In this document: positions 1,970-8,153 of the stretch, piece by piece
Layout: each line of letters starts with the position of its first letter
Position numbering within the stretch: position 1 is the first letter of the stretch
Assembly (NCBI RefSeq): GCF_020171365.1
Contig: NZ_JAIUZO010000002.1
Location: 1,612,001-1,676,000, forward strand
Length of the DNA: 64,000 bases
Origin: Qipengyuania gaetbuli
GTDB lineage: Bacteria > Pseudomonadota > Alphaproteobacteria > Sphingomonadales > Sphingomonadaceae
Reading direction: 5' to 3'
The notes under the pieces: model-generated
What the model saw: only the letters and a program-made list of their open reading frames with translations
What the model was told of the DNA's origin: nothing
The model's database searches: none
Made by a program: the position numbers and the translations under genes

Positions 1970-2038
1970 GGGGGCGATATAGAGGCGCTTCGATGAAGGG
2001 GCAATGACAGGCCGCACGACTTGGGGCATGAGACGCGC

Positions 2039-3040
2039 ATGAGCGAAGCGACCGACGAATTCTCGACCCAGACCCCGCTACTGTTCGGGCGCGTGATGGA
2101 CGGCAGGGGCGGGGCCCGGCCGATCGGCTGGGACGAAGCGCAGGGCTGGACGCCGCAGTCGCCGGGCGAAGTGCTGTGGCTCCACTTGCGCCGCGATTTC
2201 GCGGGCACGCGCCTGTGGCTCGAAAACGAACTCCGCATGCCCGAGCCCACCGCAGAACTGCTGACCAGCAACCAGACCCGGCCGCGCGCCTTTCGCGAGG
2301 GTGAGACGCTGGTGGCGACGCTGCGGGGCATCAACTTCAATCCCGGTGCCGAGCCGGAAGACATGATCTCCATGCAGTTGTGGAGCGACGGACAGCGCCT
2401 GATAACCCTGCGCCGCGCGCCGATGCAGACCCCGCGCGAGGTCATGGGAATGCTCGACCGCGGCGACGGCCCACTCGATGCAGGGGCCACAATCACGCTG
2501 CTGGCGGAATTGCTCATCACCCGGATGAGCCAGTCGATCGTCGACATGAACCAGGTGCTGGACGACCTCGAGGACGAGGACCCGGAGAAGGACCCGGAAG
2601 GGATGCTGAAGCGCATCTCCACCATCCGGCGCAATTGCCTCAGCCTCAAGCGTCACATGGCTCCGCAGCACGAGGCGCTGGAGCAGATCAGCCGCGATTC
2701 GCCCGACTGGTTCGAGGAAGAGGACCGCCGCGAGATCGCTGAAAGCATCGCGCGCCTGCGCCGCTATCTCGACGACATCGACATCAGCAAGGAAAGCGCC
2801 GTCGTGCTGCAGGACGAACTGCGTGCCCGCAGCCTCGCCAGCAGCGAACATGCGACCTACATGCTGACCATCGTGGCGGGCATCTTCCTGCCGCTGTCGT
2901 TCCTGACCGGCCTGCTCGGCATCAATGTCGGCGGCATGCCGGGGATGGACGATCCGGATGCATTCTGGGCCGTCGTGGCGCTATGCCTCGTGCTGTTCGT
3001 GTGCCTGATCGTCGTCTTCCGCCGCCTGCGCTGGCTCTAG
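2039..3040 (+). CDS. zntB: ZntB-like CorA-family metal transporter
   Basis: A 333-residue 2-TM-GxN transporter. The long N-terminal cytoplasmic domain carries the Arg-rich helix region ([18 protein letters not shown]), and two membrane helices sit at the very C-terminus ([20 protein letters not shown] and [19 protein letters not shown]). The pore motif reads GIN followed by VGGMPG, as in ZntB zinc transporters rather than the GMN of CorA magnesium channels, so zinc is the likely cargo. ATG at 2039 is used because the six codons before it are not conserved-looking. It ends 3 bp before the convergent nrsF gene. Confidence 0.88.
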
Positions 3041-3043
3041 GCC

Positions 3044-3691
3044 CTACCAGCGCACCAGCGCGGGCACGGCGATCCGGCCGACGAGCCCCATCAGTGCGAC
3101 CGGCGCGACATGCCAGATGCCGAGGTGGCCGATGCTGTCGATCGGGCAGGCAAGGCCGTAGGCGAAGCTGCCGATGGCGCCTGCCGCAATGCCGGTGAAC
3201 AATCCTGCAGCACCCAGCGAGACAGGCGCGCCGCGGCGTAGCCACAGCACCAGCGCTGTCGCCGTCACGAGGCCGAAGCCAGCGCCGGCAAGGAAGCACT
3301 CGAAGCCGTAGGGATCGCTCGATACCGCCGCGTAAAGGCCGCCGGCACCTAGCGCGAGCAGGGCGGTCAGAGGCAGGAGGCCGAGCATGGCCGTCGACCA
3401 GCGCGCACCTTCGTGGCGGTTGCCGACGCGCGGGCTGGCCATGGAGAGGACCGCGCCTGCCGCTGCCACGCCGAGTAGGCCCAGCATGCCATTGGCGATG
3501 AAGAAGATGCTCGACGCAGCGCCGCTGGCGATGCCGCGCCACAGCCCGTCGACCAGTTCGACGAGCACCACGGTGGCGAGCGCGGACAGCGCGACCAGCA
3601 GCGCGCCGTGCCAGAAGCGGATCGGGGCGACGGGGGCGAGATCGTCCGCCAGTTCGTCGATCAGCGGATTAGGGACCCGGTTCATTGTCAT
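3044..3691 (-). CDS. nrsF: NrsF-family (DUF1109) membrane anti-sigma factor
   Basis: A 215-residue protein with about six membrane helices and a short polar N-terminus, matching the DUF1109/NrsF family that holds ECF sigma factors inactive at the inner membrane. Helices run from FWHGALLVALSALATVVLV to the C-terminal ALMGLVGRIAVPALV. Two conserved-looking cysteines (in GFECFLAG and GLACPIDS) fit the NrsF pattern reported as needed for metal sensing in Caulobacter. The ATG overlaps the sigma-factor stop by four bases (ATGA), so the pair is translated together. It is the last gene of the leftward bufA1 arm and presumably releases SigF under copper or other heavy-metal stress. Confidence 0.9.
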   Translation of the reverse strand: MTMNRVPNPLIDELADDLAPVAPIRFWHGALLVALSALATVVLVELVDGLWRGIASGAASSIFFIANGMLGLLGVAAAGAVLSMASPRVGNRHEGARWSTAMLGLLPLTALLALGAGGLYAAVSSDPYGFECFLAGAGFGLVTATALVLWLRRGAPVSLGAAGLFTGIAAGAIGSFAYGLACPIDSIGHLGIWHVAPVALMGLVGRIAVPALVRW

Positions 3692-4218
3692 TCGGCCTTT
3701 TCTACGAGCGCGGACAGCTTCTTCAGCCCGCGATGGATGTTCACCTTGACCAGGCTTTCGCTCTGCCCGGTCCGTTCTGCGGCTTCCGCGATGGAAAGCC
3801 CCTCTATCTTCACCAGTTCGATGACCTCGACCTGCCGGTCGGGCAGGTGCACGAACAACCTCTCGAGGCTCATGCGGGCCATCACCGCCTCTTCCTCGCT
3901 GTCTTCGGCGGCATCGTGGTCACCCAGCCCGTCTTCCGCGCTGCGGTAGACCTTGCGCAGGTGATCGACCCAGCGATAGCGCGCGATGGCAGCCAGCCAG
4001 GGGTAGAAGGCGCGGGTGGGGTCCCAGGTGGCGCGCTTGGCATGGACCGCCATCATCACTTCCTGCACCAAATCGTCGAGTTGGGCGGGCGGCACGCGTT
4101 TCCTGAAATAGCGCGCCAGCCACAGCTGCACTTCGCCCAGGAGAACGCGGTACATCTCGCGGTCGCCCCTCTGCGCGGCCGCCATCATGTGCGCCATGCT
4201 GGCTTCGTCGGCGATCAT
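3688..4218 (-). CDS. sigF: ECF sigma factor, SigF type
   Basis: A 176-residue extracytoplasmic-function sigma factor. Region 2 spans about residues 20-85 (LDDLVQEVMMAVHAKR, then FYPWLAAIARYRWVDHLRK) and region 4 about 115-170 (LPDRQVEVIELVKIEGLS, then AERTGQSESLVKVNIHRGLK). Start MIADEAS is chosen for the GGAGGGG Shine-Dalgarno seven bases upstream. It sits between doxX and nrsF on one strand, matching the Caulobacter sigF-nrsF pair that controls bufferin genes under metal stress. Two exact SigF-type promoters lie between bufA1 and bufA2, so it probably drives both arms and its own transcription. Confidence 0.92.
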   Translation of the reverse strand: MIADEASMAHMMAAAQRGDREMYRVLLGEVQLWLARYFRKRVPPAQLDDLVQEVMMAVHAKRATWDPTRAFYPWLAAIARYRWVDHLRKVYRSAEDGLGDHDAAEDSEEEAVMARMSLERLFVHLPDRQVEVIELVKIEGLSIAEAAERTGQSESLVKVNIHRGLKKLSALVEKAE

Positions 4219-4243
4219 TTCTGCCCCTCCGCAAGCATGGCTA

Positions 4244-4702
4244 TCACGCCGCCCGCCGCGAGGCGAGGAGCGCGTCAAGCGACAGCGCCCCGCCGCCGCG
4301 CGAGACGAGAATCGCCGCCATGGCAACCCAGGCGACATGCGTGCTCCACCAGGCTTCCGGATAGACGAAGACCTGTATGACAACCGTCATTCCCAGCAGC
4401 GACAGCGCGGCAAAGCGCGTGAACAATCCGGCGACCAGAAGGGCGGGAAACAGGTGCTCGGCATAGGTAGCCAGGGGAGCCGCAATGTCGGCGGGCAGGG
4501 GCAGGCCGGTATATTCGTATTCGAACAGGAAGACGGCATTGTCGCTGACGGTCAGCGCCGTGCCGTCCTCCACCTTGGTGCGGCCCGATCGCCAGAAAAT
4601 CCCGGCCAGAGCCACGCGGGTGAGAAGCAGTGCGAGGCTTTCCGGCCCGCGCGATGCGAGCCAGGCGGCCAGGCGGTCGTAGGGGGTCAGTACTCGCTGC
4701 AT
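4244..4702 (-). CDS. DoxX-family membrane protein of the bufferin locus
   Basis: A 152-residue DoxX/DoxD-type protein with four membrane segments: LALLLTRVALAGIFW, an extracytoplasmic stretch, the AEHLFPALLVAGLFTRFAA helix, MTVVIQVFVYPEAWW, and HVAWVAMAAILV. The FPALLVAGLFTRFAAL and VFVYPEAWWSTH signatures are typical of DoxX proteins found beside bufferin and HvfX-type metallophore genes (BufD). Its role there is not established; maturation, export or electron transfer have been suggested. It lies 48 bp downstream of bufA1 and 25 bp before sigF, in the same leftward transcript, with GAGGTGAG as Shine-Dalgarno. Confidence 0.85.
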   Translation of the reverse strand: MQRVLTPYDRLAAWLASRGPESLALLLTRVALAGIFWRSGRTKVEDGTALTVSDNAVFLFEYEYTGLPLPADIAAPLATYAEHLFPALLVAGLFTRFAALSLLGMTVVIQVFVYPEAWWSTHVAWVAMAAILVSRGGGALSLDALLASRRAA

Positions 4703-4750
4703 GTCTCACCTCGTCATGGGCTGGCCGGGCAGGCGGGAGGGACGCTTGGC

Positions 4751-5038
4751 TCAGCGCTTCACGGGCGTGAGCGAACCCTTGCCCTTGGGCGTGGAGATGG
4801 TCTCGCAGCTGCCCTTCTTGACCAGCTTCCAGACATCGCCCTGCCAGTCGCGGGTGGACGTGCCCGCGCAGCTGGTGCCGGGACCGGCGGCACAATCGTT
4901 CTCGCCTGCCTTGGCGACGCCGTAGCACTTCTCCATCGCGTGTTTCTTCTGCGCAGCGGCGGGGCTGGCGGTGAGCGTGGCGGCGATGCCGGCGGTCAGG
5001 GCAAGGCCCGCAAGGCGGGCGATCGATTGATTGTGCAT
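4751..5038 (-). CDS. bufA1: BufA1-type (DUF2282) bufferin precursor
   Basis: A 95-residue exported small protein. Residues 1-30 form a signal peptide ending AAAQ. The mature part holds four cysteines at 38, 49, 57 and 78 ([18 protein letters not shown], then [15 protein letters not shown], then GSCETI), the DUF2282 pattern. Known BufA1 proteins are ribosomal peptides whose cysteines are modified by an MNIO enzyme so that the product binds copper in the periplasm. Start chosen for the GAGAG Shine-Dalgarno. It heads the leftward arm behind an exact SigF-type promoter. No bufB or bufC lies in this arm, so modification must come from the rightward arm or elsewhere. Confidence 0.9.
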
Positions 5039-5099
5039 GGCAAGTCTCTCTTGTTCTCGAATGCTGTGTCGGGGCGGGGGCGCCGCAACTGGCAGGTCA

Positions 5100-5125
5100 T
5101 TCGGGGCGAGAGGCCGGGCGGTTAC
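5100..5125 (-). promoter_or_regulatory. SigF-type ECF promoter for bufA1 arm
   Basis: On the minus strand this reads GTAACC (5125-5120), 16 bases, then CGAA (5103-5100), identical to the sigma-F consensus I recall for Caulobacter. It lies 62 bp upstream of the bufA1 ATG with correct orientation. A mirror copy facing the other way starts 23 bp to the right. Confidence 0.85.
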
Positions 5126-5148
5126 GCCGGTTTGCGAAAAAAGTGCCT

Positions 5149-5174
5149 GTAACCGGTCGCTGGCCGGGGGCGAA
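5149..5174 (+). promoter_or_regulatory. SigF-type ECF promoter for bufA2-bufB-bufC arm
   Basis: GTAACC at 5149-5154, exactly 16 bases, then CGAA at 5171-5174. The spacing and both hexamer/tetramer elements match the copy driving bufA1, so two independent exact hits sit in one 150-bp intergenic region. It is 50 bp from the bufA2 ATG. Confidence 0.85.
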
Positions 5175-5223
5175 GGATACCGGGTGCACCGACGCACGCA
5201 TCAGATCACAAGGAATGGATGCC

Positions 5224-5511
5224 ATGAACCTCGCTACCCGCAAGACCGCCACTGCCGCCGCCGCCGCGGCCTTTGCCCTTTCGTCGATGAGCGCGCTTGC
5301 CGCGCCTGCCCCTGCCGGCAGCAGCGGTTCGGCGATTGCCGCCGACGATACCGTCCACTGCTACGGCGTGCACAGCTGCAAGGGCCAGGCCGACTGCGCC
5401 ACCAGCGAGAACGCCTGCAAGGGCCAGAACGAATGCAAGGGCCACGGCTTCAAGGCGATGAAGGCGGGCCAGTGCCTGACCAAGGGCGGGACGATCGGCG
5501 ACATCGGCTGA
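5224..5511 (+). CDS. bufA2: BufA2-type Cys-rich bufferin precursor
   Basis: A 95-residue exported peptide. An N-terminal signal sequence of about 27 residues (Ala-rich, ending SALAAPAP) is followed by a Gly/Ser linker and a Cys-rich core with six cysteines at 46, 52, 58, 65, 71 and 84, spaced nearly every six residues ([20 protein letters not shown]). CKGQ/CKGH repeats are typical of BufA2-type precursors next to DUF692 enzymes. ATG 5224 is preferred over 5215 because AAGGA then sits ten bases upstream. It shares little sequence with BufA1 apart from the CYGV motif. First gene of the rightward SigF arm. Confidence 0.88.
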
Positions 5512-5544
5512 TCCTCACTGCCCCAAGTGGGCGGCCCGGCGTGC

Positions 5545-5559
5545 GGGGGATCCTCCCCC
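5545..5559 (+). terminator. Possible attenuator hairpin between bufA2 and bufB
   Basis: GGGGGA (5545-5550), three-base loop TCC, TCCCCC (5554-5559): a perfect six-pair stem with only a weak following T tract (TTCGTG). It lies 33 bp after the precursor stop and 58 bp before the bufB ATG. A partial terminator or mRNA 3'-end stabiliser here would give excess precursor over enzyme, as is common in RiPP operons. Function is inferred. Confidence 0.4.
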
Positions 5560-5617
5560 TTCGTGTCCCCCAACGTCCCTCGCCGGGTCGCCTTTTCCCT
5601 TGCTGCCGGAGACACCC

Positions 5618-6445
5618 ATGACGAGCATCGCTCCCTTCCACGGCTTCGGCCTCGGCCTCAGGCGGACGCATTATGCGGACTTCCTCGAAGGCGACGTGCC
5701 GGTCGATTTCGTCGAGGTGATCTCGGAAAACTACATGGTGGAGGGCGGCAAGCCGCTGCGCATCCTCGAACAGGTGCGCGCGCACCATCCGGTGATCCTC
5801 CACGGCGTTTCCATGTCGATCGGCTCGGCCCACGGGCTGGACCGCGATTACCTGGCCAAGCTGAAGGCGCTGGCCGACCGGATAGAGCCGCTCTGGGTGT
5901 CCGACCATTTGTGCTGGACCCGGAACAGCGCCCATAATTCGCACGATCTCCTGCCCATGCCGCTCACGCGCGAGGCGCTGGAGGTGGTGTGCGAGAATAT
6001 CGACCGTGCGCAGACCGCGCTGGGCCGCGTAATGCTGTTCGAGAACCCGTCGAGCTATCTCGCCTTTCCGGAGGACGAGATGGCGGAATGGGAATTCCTT
6101 TCGGAAATGGCACGGCGCACCGGGTGCTACCTGCTGCTCGACGTCAACAACGTCCATGTCAGCGCGCGGAACCATGGTTTCTCGGCGAGTGACTACATCA
6201 CCGGACTGCCGCTCGACCGTGTACGGCAGATCCATCTTGCCGGACACACGCCGGGCGAGATCGTCATCGACACGCACGACCGCGCAGTCTGCGGCGAGGT
6301 GTGGGCGCTTTTTGCGGAAACCATCGCCCGCACCGGTCCGGTCGCCACCATGATCGAGCGCGACGACAAGATTCCACCGCTGGCCGAATTGCTCGGCGAA
6401 CTCGACCACGCCCGCGCACTGGCGGCGCAGCGGATCGCGGCATGA
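5618..6445 (+). CDS. bufB: DUF692/MNIO bufferin-modifying enzyme
   Basis: A 275-residue DUF692 protein, now called multinuclear non-heme iron oxidative (MNIO) enzymes, with a TIM-barrel fold. Metal-binding motifs are in order: VEVISENYM, HPVILHGVSMSIGS, WVSDHLCWT, HDLLPMP, LFENPSSY, LLDVNNVHVSARNHGF, IHLAGHT, DTHDRAV and MIERDD. These enzymes oxidise precursor cysteines to heterocycles in the cytoplasm before export. Start MTSIAPF follows a GGAG Shine-Dalgarno. Its stop overlaps the bufC start (ATGA), so enzyme and partner are coupled. It is the only DUF692 gene in the window and could serve both precursors. Confidence 0.94.
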   Translation: MTSIAPFHGFGLGLRRTHYADFLEGDVPVDFVEVISENYMVEGGKPLRILEQVRAHHPVILHGVSMSIGSAHGLDRDYLAKLKALADRIEPLWVSDHLCWTRNSAHNSHDLLPMPLTREALEVVCENIDRAQTALGRVMLFENPSSYLAFPEDEMAEWEFLSEMARRTGCYLLLDVNNVHVSARNHGFSASDYITGLPLDRVRQIHLAGHTPGEIVIDTHDRAVCGEVWALFAETIARTGPVATMIERDDKIPPLAELLGELDHARALAAQRIAA

Positions 6446-7194
6446 GCGGGCTTGCCGAGGCGCAGGACGCGATGCTGGCGCGTATCCTCGACGAGGACCT
6501 GCCGCTTCCGGCAGGCTGGACACCGCGCCATGCAGCGGGCCTTGCGGTCTATCGCAACAACTACCGCTCCGCGCTGGTCGAGGCGCTGCGGTCGACTTTC
6601 GAGCGCACCGCACGGCTGGTCGGCGAGGACAGTTTCGAGCGCGCCGCCGCGCATCACGTGATTACCCACCCTCCGACCAGCTGGACCCTCGACTTTGCAG
6701 GCGAGGGGTTCGATGCGACCTGCGCGCAGCTGTTCGCGCGGGACCCCGAGGTTGCCGAACTCGCCTGGCTGGAATGGGCCATGCACTGCGCCTTCGTCGC
6801 GCGCGATGCGGCAAGGCTCGACGGGGCGGGGTTTGCTGCAGCGACGGCGAGCTACGGCGATGCGGACTGGGCCGGATTGCGGCTGCGCTTCGTGCCCGGC
6901 ATCGCTCTACGCACGCTCCGTCACGACGTGAAACGTCTCTGGTCAGACGGGGACGCGCACCTTCTGGAAGAGGTCGCCTGCTGCATCGTCTGGCGCGAGG
7001 GCGAGTGGCCCGTCTTCCAGCAGCTGCCCCTGCCCGAAGGCGAGGCGCTGTCCGCCATGATGGAGGGCGCAAGCTTCGCCGAGGCCTGCGAGCTGTTGTC
7101 CGGCCTGCTGGGCGAGGAAGAGGCACCGGCCGCCGCCGGGGCCATGCTCGCGCGCTGGCTGGCCGAAGGGCTGGTCGAAGGCCTCGCTCAGTAA
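6442..7194 (+). CDS. bufC: DUF2063 partner protein BufC
   Basis: A 250-residue protein with the DUF2063 (HvfC/BufC N-terminal) domain in residues 1-100: GLAVYRNNYRSALVEALRST followed by FERTARLVGEDSFERAAAHH and HPPTSWTLDFAGEGF. Such proteins bind the precursor leader and assist the MNIO enzyme. The C-terminal half is alpha-helical and variable, ending AAGAMLARWLAEGLVEG. Translationally coupled to bufB by a four-base overlap. Its end overlaps the convergent SDR gene by seven bases, closing the bufferin locus. Confidence 0.9.
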   Translation: MSGLAEAQDAMLARILDEDLPLPAGWTPRHAAGLAVYRNNYRSALVEALRSTFERTARLVGEDSFERAAAHHVITHPPTSWTLDFAGEGFDATCAQLFARDPEVAELAWLEWAMHCAFVARDAARLDGAGFAAATASYGDADWAGLRLRFVPGIALRTLRHDVKRLWSDGDAHLLEEVACCIVWREGEWPVFQQLPLPEGEALSAMMEGASFAEACELLSGLLGEEEAPAAAGAMLARWLAEGLVEGLAQ

Positions 7195-8153
7195 GCGAAG
7201 CTTTCGCCCACCATTTCCTCGCTCATCGCCCACAGGCGGTCGGCATTGCCCTTGTCGATGGCATAGCTGCGCACGCCGCCGCTGGGGCTTTCGTCGTCCT
7301 GGTCGGCCACGTGGCAATTCTCGCAATAGAGCCCGCCTGCGCCTTCCAGCTCTTCCGCCGTGGCTGCCCAGCAGGTCGTCGCCGCGCCCTGCGGGATGGA
7401 CTTGAACGGCTCGGGCGTCTGGCCCGATGCTTCGGCGTTCTTGCGGATACGCTCCATCAGATCGGCCATGTCCTGTTCGGTCATGTGACGGCTGAGATTG
7501 GTCATGATCCCGCCCGGGTGAAGCGAATAGGCATGGATGCCCTTGTCGGCGAGCCGGTCTTCGAGGCCAACGGCGAACAGCACGTTCGCGGTCTTGGACT
7601 GGCCGTAGCTCTGCCATTTCTCGTATTCGCGGCGCTCGAAATTCGGATCGTCGAAATCGACCGGCGCGATGTGGTGGCCGCGGCTCGACAGGTTGACGAT
7701 GCGCGGACGCTCTCCCTGCTCCAGCAGCGGGACGAGGTGGTTGGTCAGCACGAAATGCCCGAGGTGGTTGGTGCCGAACTGCATCTCGAACCCGTCGGCG
7801 GTCTTGGCCTGGTCGCAGGCCATGACGCCCGCGTTGTTGATCAGCAGGTCGATCTTGTCGAACCGTTCGTTCGCTTCCTTCGCAGCCGCGCGGACGCTGG
7901 CGAGCGATGCGAGGTCGCAGACCAGCGTTTCCACACTGGCGCCGGTTTCCTGCGAAATTTCCGATGCCGCCTCGGCCAGCTTGCCTTCGTCGCGGCCCGA
8001 CAGGATCAGATGCGCGCCTTTCGCGCCCATGGCCCGCGCCGTTTCGCGCCCGAGGCCCGAATAGGCGCCGGTGATCAACACCGTCCTGCCGGTCAGGTCC
8101 TTGCCTTCGAGGACTTCGTCCGCCGTGCTTTCGTAACCGAACTTGCTCATCAT
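7188..8153 (-). CDS. Short-chain dehydrogenase/reductase, retinol-dehydrogenase-like
   Basis: A 321-residue SDR. It has the NAD(P) motif TGAYSGLGRE near residue 28, DLLINNAGVMA, the NLSSRGHHIAP strand with catalytic Ser, and the YGQSK catalytic Tyr/Lys motif, followed by HPGGIMTNLSRHM. The extra C-terminal segment (GLYCENCHVADQDDESPSGG) is typical of the WW-domain-oxidoreductase or retinol-dehydrogenase-like bacterial SDRs. Substrate unknown. It is convergent with bufC and separated from the upstream channel gene by a hairpin, so probably monocistronic. Confidence 0.9.
   Translation of the reverse strand: MMSKFGYESTADEVLEGKDLTGRTVLITGAYSGLGRETARAMGAKGAHLILSGRDEGKLAEAASEISQETGASVETLVCDLASLASVRAAAKEANERFDKIDLLINNAGVMACDQAKTADGFEMQFGTNHLGHFVLTNHLVPLLEQGERPRIVNLSSRGHHIAPVDFDDPNFERREYEKWQSYGQSKTANVLFAVGLEDRLADKGIHAYSLHPGGIMTNLSRHMTEQDMADLMERIRKNAEASGQTPEPFKSIPQGAATTCWAATAEELEGAGGLYCENCHVADQDDESPSGGVRSYAIDKGNADRLWAMSEEMVGESFAY

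Follow-up and report, generated by a model that had tools for sequence, protein, structure and literature searches.

Can one MNIO-DUF2063 enzyme pair serve bufferin precursors of two families? Where a 2025 survey of MNIO clusters takes up the matter, whether an enzyme-partner pair acts on several precursors or on only some of them is given as an open question (PMC12452194). It is raised here by a divergent bufferin locus at positions 3044-7194 of the window, the 64,000-nucleotide (64 kb) stretch of Qipengyuania gaetbuli DNA under analysis, in which Pfam and NCBIfam profiles delimited a leftward bufA1-doxX-sigF-nrsF arm (map order nrsF-sigF-doxX-bufA1) and a rightward bufA2-bufB-bufC arm.

Two precursor genes and one enzyme pair

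The features of the locus were as follows:

3044..3691, minus strand: nrsF, anti-sigma factor (PF06532, 121.9 bits, E 4e-35)
3688..4218, minus strand: sigF-like ECF sigma factor (Sigma70_r2 and r4_2)
4244..4702, minus strand: doxX (bufD/HvfX-like), membrane protein (PF07681, 58 bits)
4751..5038, minus strand: bufA1, Buf1/DUF2282 precursor with 4 Cys (PF10048, 81 bits)
5100..5125, minus strand: predicted SigF-type promoter GTAACC-N16-CGAA toward bufA1-doxX-sigF-nrsF (motif; kept in relatives)
5149..5174, plus strand: predicted SigF-type promoter GTAACC-N16-CGAA toward bufA2-bufB-bufC (motif; kept in relatives)
5224..5511, plus strand: bufA2, Buf2 precursor with 6 Cys and Cys-Lys-Gly motifs (NF050166, 101.9 bits)
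5618..6445, plus strand: bufB, MNIO (DUF692) maturase, Buf2 side of the tree (NF050167, 378.8 bits)
6442..7194, plus strand: bufC, DUF2063 partner (PF09836, E 2e-19; Buf2 side of the C tree)

All seven genes reported in the first-pass annotation were found at these coordinates, their families were confirmed by the Pfam/NCBIfam scores, and so were its two cysteine patterns, with Cys at 38, 49, 57 and 78 in BufA1 and six Cys at 46, 52, 58, 65, 71 and 84 in BufA2. The promoters, the Buf2 type of the enzyme, its position as the sole MNIO found in the genome and the frequency of the layout in sphingomonads are additions to that annotation. Both sigF/nrsF (sigF start codon picked by eye) and bufB/bufC overlapped by 4 bp.

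BufA1 was assigned to the Buf1 (DUF2282) family (PF10048 cut-off 22.4 bits), BufA2 to the Buf2 family (NF050166 cut-off 60) and BufB to the Buf2-type maturases (NF050167 cut-off 310). Cys-rich precursors with signal peptides, called by eye from the sequence, thus adjoined MNIO and DUF2063 genes, the arrangement that defines a bufferin BGC. Three other products belonged to their Pfam families at scores below the NCBIfam equivalogs: NrsF (26.3 of 300 bits for NF042994), which is therefore described as NrsF-like and not as an orthologue by that model, DoxX (53 bits vs. a cut-off of 80 for the HvfX model NF050144) and the DUF2063 protein (24 bits vs. 142 for the HvfC model NF050145). The Cys residues of NrsF at 132 and 182 were close, by unaligned residue number, to the regulatory C131/C181 described for Caulobacter NrsF (PMC3511200). 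BufB matched 3bww, 8hci and MbnB in sequence; for BufC, a sequence search of the PDB at E 0.1 gave no match.

Paired SigF-type sites and spread of the layout

Both arms were headed by a perfect match to the Caulobacter SigF promoter motif, the upstream element that marks a SigF-NrsF operon, and these two GTAACC-N16-CGAA sites were the only ones in the 64 kb, both lying within the 185-bp gap between the arms. In 74 distinct loci, either composite (both precursor genes with a single enzyme pair, as in the window) or lacking bufA2, the strict motif was present on the left in 46, on the right in 46 and on both sides in 29; the relaxed GTAAC-N17-CGAA was present in 69, 65 and 65 respectively, one or both sites being missing in 9. 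Site density was 4.38 per kb in the gap vs. 0.019 per kb in the remainder of the loci, with 0 for a reversed-pattern control. The motif alone was unspecific at genome scale (24 matches vs. 18 for the reversed pattern in the window's genome; for three congeneric genomes, 18 vs. 10, 9 vs. 13 and 22 vs. 20). Another pair of SigF-type sites was located upstream of a gene for a MerA/Lpd-like FAD disulfide reductase, and was also seen in one of three relatives from the genus.

Neighbours were called from Pfam/NCBIfam coordinates and then with separate BufA1 and BufA2 profiles, since iterated profiles cross-recruit both families. Composite loci held 61 of the 195 surveyed BufB genes, mostly from sphingomonads, and 45 survey loci, the window included, had the same gene order and orientation. 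This identity of order and orientation, together with the shared promoter region and its two divergent SigF-type sites, places the layout beyond chance, and the composite is a recurrent sphingomonad layout, not unique to the window. Two types, nrsF-sigF-doxX-A1 / A2-B-C (type I) and doxX-A1 / sigF-nrsF-A2-B-C (type II), were apart in the sigF, doxX and nrsF trees, some nodes being weak. The number of loci classed as A2-B only is an upper count, because short contigs can hide an arm.

The Caulobacter crescentus SigF regulon is described as CC3252-CC3257 (nrsF, sigF, DUF2282, DUF692, DUF2063, DoxX) and CC2907-CC2905 (PMC3511200). It is like the window in gene families, promoter motif and SigF/NrsF control, the last represented in the window by the genes and the motif. 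The gene order differed, as the first-pass annotation had proposed: Caulobacter has two separate SigF-dependent operons, each precursor gene heading its own enzyme pair, whereas the window has one pair for two precursor families, with its sigF following bufA1 and doxX on their strand. The sphingomonad Buf1 operon A1-B-C-doxX-sigF-nrsF (11 loci of exact order) had SigF-type sites and doxX, sigF and nrsF genes clustering with those of the window, but carried Buf1-type B and C genes on the strand of A1. The Buf2 operon A2-B-C (35 loci of exact order) matched the rightward arm and its enzyme type; unlike the window, A2-only loci contained sigF in just 6 of 50 cases and nrsF in 7 of 50. The presence of sigF-nrsF beside a Buf2 cluster qualifies the published statement that sigma/NrsF genes are present in Buf1 BGCs and absent from those of Buf2 (PMC12452194).

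Head-to-head double loci (L293 in Caulobacter sp. S45, L288 in Sphingomonas, L294 in Asticcacaulis and L156 in genome G020) had divergent A1 and A2 arms like the window, but retained both enzyme pairs; both sides carried SigF-type sites in L288 and L293, the left side alone in L156. A locus of this kind is a possible ancestor of the composite.

Mosaic ancestry of the locus

In the BufB tree, which was midpoint-rooted and poorly supported at some deep nodes, the clade of Buf1 enzymes (44 tips, support 0.992) included none of the 53 composite BufBs and none of the 20 from loci lacking bufA2; the BufC tree agreed, placing their partners on the Buf2 side. The window BufB was likewise outside the clade of Buf1-operon enzymes, on the side of the A2-only enzymes, and had the Buf2 state at 8 of 8 positions diagnostic for Buf1 vs. 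Buf2 (mean 7.57 in composites and 8.0 in loci lacking bufA2). The sigF, nrsF and doxX genes of composites clustered with those of Buf1 operons. The locus is thus a mosaic, with a Buf2-side enzyme pair and Buf1-side sigF, nrsF and doxX. The earlier idea of a merged, self-regulated locus holds insofar as both precursor families, the maturation genes and the sigma/anti-sigma pair form one locus, its arms joined by paired SigF-type promoters; the merger is not singular, and the Buf1 enzyme pair is absent, a Buf2-type pair serving the mosaic locus.

The window's genome (99.99% complete) had one PF05114 match, bufB itself, so that bufA1 is left without a Buf1-type enzyme. Whole-genome searches of 31 other composite genomes found a single MNIO in 23 and an extra MNIO or MNIO fragment in the remaining 8; each of three genomes lacking bufA2, also searched whole, had a single MNIO.

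Twenty loci of Erythrobacter type carried a Buf2-type enzyme opposite bufA1 alone. In 19 of them a SigF-type site directly faced bufB, the short ORFs separating the two were all unlike BufA2, and BufA2 was absent from three such genomes searched whole. Their 20 BufBs grouped with those of two composites in a 22-member clade (support 0.991) and formed no supported clade by themselves (0.27); no shift toward the Buf1 state after bufA2 loss was found at the diagnostic positions. A second case, L149 (genome G192), had two BufA1 and a Buf2-type enzyme, with no BufA2 over the cut-off. The composites and their relatives without bufA2 suggest that one enzyme may handle both peptides.

Substrates and inducing stress

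From the gene content, promoter-like sites, conservation, enzyme ancestry, single MNIO and loss of bufA2 we infer modification, metal binding and induction, and consider it probable that SigF/NrsF drives both divergent arms of the composite locus and that its single Buf2-type BufB-BufC modifies BufA1 and BufA2 as metal buffers. NrsF, a membrane anti-sigma factor, would hold SigF until an envelope stress (metal or thiol stress is probable) frees it to fire both divergent promoters simultaneously. The leftward promoter would supply BufA1, DoxX and further SigF and NrsF (positive feedback and brake), and the rightward one BufA2 and the enzyme pair, which would turn Cys of both precursors into thiooxazole-type groups in the cytoplasm. 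Both modified peptides would then cross via Sec and buffer copper, or a soft metal, in the periplasm.

The stress may be other than copper (chromate, cadmium, gold or oxidants), with the peptides as general thiol/soft-metal buffers, an option that we regard as possible rather than likely and that is compatible with dual modification. Caulobacter SigF is reported to respond to chromium and cadmium (PMC3511200), for which reason copper is here only a presumed inducer, and the site pair before the MerA/Lpd-like reductase gene, recurring in one of three genus relatives, points the same way; Caulobacter Buf1, however, is reported to bind copper and to aid growth in its excess (PMC12452194).

It is rather unlikely that BufA2 alone is modified and that BufA1 acts in the periplasm as a 4-Cys peptide without modification, kept for a separate role that may be redox or structural. 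This possibility is raised in the published survey (PMC12452194), and enzyme and partner are both of Buf2 type, but the 20 loci that keep such an enzyme with BufA1 as their sole precursor argue against it. The four Cys of BufA1 were retained in 54 of 54 distinct composite sequences and 19 of 19 from loci lacking bufA2, and in the class sample an MNIO match accompanied DUF2282 in 133 of 135 genomes (one as a fragment only). In two near-complete genomes with DUF2282 and no MNIO (G051 and G128), the two central Cys, described as the modified pair in Buf1 (PMC12452194), were lost and the outer two kept. The incomplete genomes G398 (92%) and G566 (77%) had a 4-Cys DUF2282 protein and no detected MNIO, which is in favour of BufA2-only modification and makes Cys retention an imperfect sign of modification; the joint loss, seen in two of four MNIO-less genomes, both near-complete, is accordingly taken as supporting evidence. 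BufA1 is a homologue of BufA2 by hhalign (97.4%, E 3e-11), and its central Cys align with inner Cys of the latter.

Captophorins, thiooxazole metallophores, share with the window the MNIO and DUF2063 class of the proposed chemistry; the related enzyme pair FonBC failed to process those tested substrates in which Cys was followed by a charged residue, Cys-Lys ones included. The authors of that study infer from FonBC a Cys selectivity that is specific to the family (PMC12668002), as against the dual use proposed here. Such selectivity would count against a dual-substrate reading.

Modification of BufA1 by a separate MNIO elsewhere is conceivable where a composite genome has several matches (8 of 31) but very improbable overall, given the single match in the other 23 and in the window's genome, where it is excluded at PF05114 sensitivity. 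A Buf1 remnant that merely adjoins an unrelated Buf2 operon would fit the mosaic ancestry of the arms, but this hardly credible juxtaposition was rejected on the order, orientation and paired promoter-like sites conserved across dozens of loci.

Dual modification by BufB-BufC may extend further, with about even chances: the pair may be a substrate-promiscuous hub by which one SigF regulon has several bufferins of two families modified in cis and in trans, including, in some genomes, distantly encoded lipoprotein-anchored BufA1s. The window locus and its relatives without bufA2 are natural experiments in which the dual-substrate question is testable with few genes. If one pair accepts both families, the enzyme would be a useful tool for producing thiooxazole peptides. 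Enzyme clade could then not tell precursor family, and such a hub would uncouple the two, contrary to the view that MNIO subgroups match their precursors.

Gene content and occurrence of the locus

The divergent bufferin locus with two precursors and its own sigma/anti-sigma pair, described by the first-pass annotation, was confirmed: its seven genes occupy 3044-7194 of the window, between a CorA-family transporter gene and an SDR gene. The host genome is Qipengyuania-like (2.69 Mb, two contigs), and its BufB shares 95% identity with the Q. gaetbuli protein.

Features of the bufferin locus and its flanks (window coordinates, strand, feature)
2021-3040, CorA-family transporter gene, left flank
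3044-3691, minus, nrsF
3688-4218, minus, ECF sigma gene (sigF)
4244-4702, minus, doxX
4751-5038, minus, bufA1/DUF2282
5100-5125, minus, SigF-type site facing bufA1
5149-5174, plus, SigF-type site facing bufA2
5224-5511, plus, bufA2
5618-6445, plus, bufB/MNIO
6442-7194, plus, bufC/DUF2063
7188-8153, SDR gene, right flank

BufA1, BufA2 and BufB scored above the curated cut-offs of their family models. The NrsF, DoxX and DUF2063 proteins of the window matched their Pfam families and stayed below the cut-offs of the NCBIfam equivalogs NrsF, DoxX (HvfX) and DUF2063 (HvfC).

In a family sample of 199 genomes, 70 had a BufB match, 66 a DUF2282 match and 42 a BufA2 match over the cut-off. The survey set combined BufB surroundings from 67 of these 70 genomes, 20 BufA2 stretches sampled at class level and the 80 named relatives closest to the window's BufB. 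It comprised 195 BufB genes in 181 loci, the window included; it is skewed to relatives of the window, its subsamples share members, and on short contigs one arm may go unseen. Composite loci (bufA1 and bufA2 divergent, one BufB enzyme) accounted for 61 BufB genes, loci with A2-B only for 50, Buf1 operons for 29, adjacent double loci keeping both enzymes for 28, composites lacking bufA2 (“A2-missing” loci) for 20 and other arrangements for 7. Composites were present in 33 genomes of the family sample, one of which (G167) probably has a double locus broken up across contigs. Named holders included species of Qipengyuania, Pontixanthobacter, Parerythrobacter, Erythrobacter, Sphingobium, Novosphingobium, Croceicoccus and Sphingosinicella.

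One genome (G031) carried an A1-doxX-sigF-nrsF island (L357) and an A2-B-C operon (L115) on separate contigs. Sphingomonad-like loci, BufA1 included, were seen on a gamma- and a betaproteobacterial contig (L277, Luteimonas kalidii, and L286, Cupriavidus necator A5-1; BufB sharing 70% and 66% identity, respectively, with that of the window), possibly by horizontal transfer or contamination.

SigF-type promoter sites

The Caulobacter SigF recognition motif is given as GTAACC-N16-CGAA (PMC3511200). Exactly two matches were found in the window with spacers of 15-18 allowed, both N16, one facing each precursor gene; 0.17 were expected by chance, and two were reached in 1 of 100 shuffles. Over the whole genome the counts were 24 for the motif vs. 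18 for the reversed pattern, and three congeneric genomes gave 18 vs. 10, 9 vs. 13 and 22 vs. 20. The motif alone is thus unspecific genome-wide, and the argument rests on the position and conservation of the sites. Of 74 distinct composite or A2-missing loci, 69 carried the relaxed form GTAAC-N17-CGAA on the left and 65 on the right, with both sides occupied in 65 (46, 46 and 29, respectively, for the strict form). The density of the relaxed form was 4.38 per kb in the gap between the arms vs. 0.019 per kb outside it within these loci; the reversed pattern was absent from the gap. The leftward promoter would be expected to drive SigF and its brake NrsF as well, because their genes follow bufA1 on its strand.

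SigF-type sites were also seen elsewhere. Orphan BufA1 genes distant from the MNIO locus in five genomes (L352-L356; G041, G121, G180, G120 and G037) each had GTAACC-N16-CGAA just upstream, a lipobox-like N-terminus (by eye) and an acidic linker; from these sequence features they are probably lipoprotein bufferins, perhaps modified in trans. Three other orphans (L358-L360) looked similar and lacked the site. Outside the window, a second, overlapping pair of divergent sites (L016, G000:C2:1696031-1696104) was flanked by an SDR/NAD-epimerase gene and a MerA/Lpd-like FAD disulfide reductase gene; the same two genes (72% identity) and both sites recurred in G078 (L363). Among the matches listed for G198 and G146, the bufferin pair was the only close one.

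Mixed ancestry of the two arms

A midpoint-rooted FastTree phylogeny was built from 186 distinct BufBs. Of the 29 Buf1-operon enzymes, 28 fell in a single clade (44 tips, support 0.992), as did the 13 A1-paired enzymes from double loci; the other part of the tree took in every composite (53) and every A2-missing (20) BufB, together with the A2-only enzymes. The BufC tree showed the same split, with a composite-free clade of 44 (support 0.973). The sigF and nrsF genes of window-type composites, and more weakly doxX, clustered with those of sphingomonad Buf1 operons. By these trees the locus is a mosaic in which a Buf1 arm with regulators and a precursor has been joined to a Buf2 arm with the enzymes. 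The first-pass reading, two precursor classes merged into a self-regulated island different from the separate Caulobacter operons, held in outline, but had to be corrected for this mosaic origin and for the recurrence of the layout in relatives. A stage at which the Buf1 enzymes had not yet been lost seems to be represented by four head-to-head double loci in which both pairs remain (L156, L288, L293, L294). At 10 loci a second composite form had sigF-nrsF between its arms; it stood apart in all three gene trees (sigF, doxX, nrsF), so the arms may have been fused on more than one occasion.

A proposed single enzyme pair for two precursors

A single MNIO (PF05114) was counted in the window's genome, in 23 of the 31 other composite genomes and in all three A2-missing genomes searched; these three lacked BufA2 throughout. 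The 20 loci that lost bufA2 formed, with two composites, a clade of 22 BufBs (support 0.991); the 20 alone were not supported as a clade (0.27), so bufA2 may have been lost once or several times. Their enzymes had the Buf2-like state at all diagnostic positions; in 19 of the 20 a SigF-type site directly faced bufB, and no BufA2-like ORF was found between them. Another Buf2-type enzyme (L149) was preceded by two BufA1 genes, and its genome had no BufA2 over the cut-off.

The four Cys of BufA1 were kept in all distinct sequences from composite (54) and A2-missing (19) loci, and in 123 of the 124 distinct sequences encoded no more than 4.5 kb from an MNIO gene, the exception (L173) having an in-frame stop. 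As a control for this retention, two near-complete genomes of the same genus (G051, G128) had a DUF2282 gene and no MNIO was found; their proteins (L361, L362) kept the first and last Cys and had lost exactly the central two, the modified pair in Buf1 according to a figure legend (PMC12452194, Fig. 3). However, two incomplete genomes of the same family (G398, G566) had a four-Cys DUF2282 with no MNIO detected. An MNIO match accompanied DUF2282 in 133 of 135 genomes of the class sample, only a fragment in G530, where BufA1 continues into it within one open frame and both are therefore broken.

BufA1 and BufA2 proved homologous on profile comparison (97.4% probability, E 3e-11), with a common CYGV...C...C...C frame in which the four BufA1 Cys align with four of the six in BufA2, the central pair on inner ones. 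This likeness suggests how one enzyme could take both precursors. According to preliminary results mentioned in the Discussion of PMC12452194, recognition by the Buf1 BufB-BufC complex involves the signal peptide.

The locus is a variant of known bufferin systems and may already have been mentioned in print. Tandem precursor genes, and genomes in which several precursors go with one enzyme pair, are noted in the same MNIO survey, which calls for further studies (PMC12452194). The value of the locus is that it renders this published question, whether one enzyme pair acts on several precursors or on some of them only, testable.
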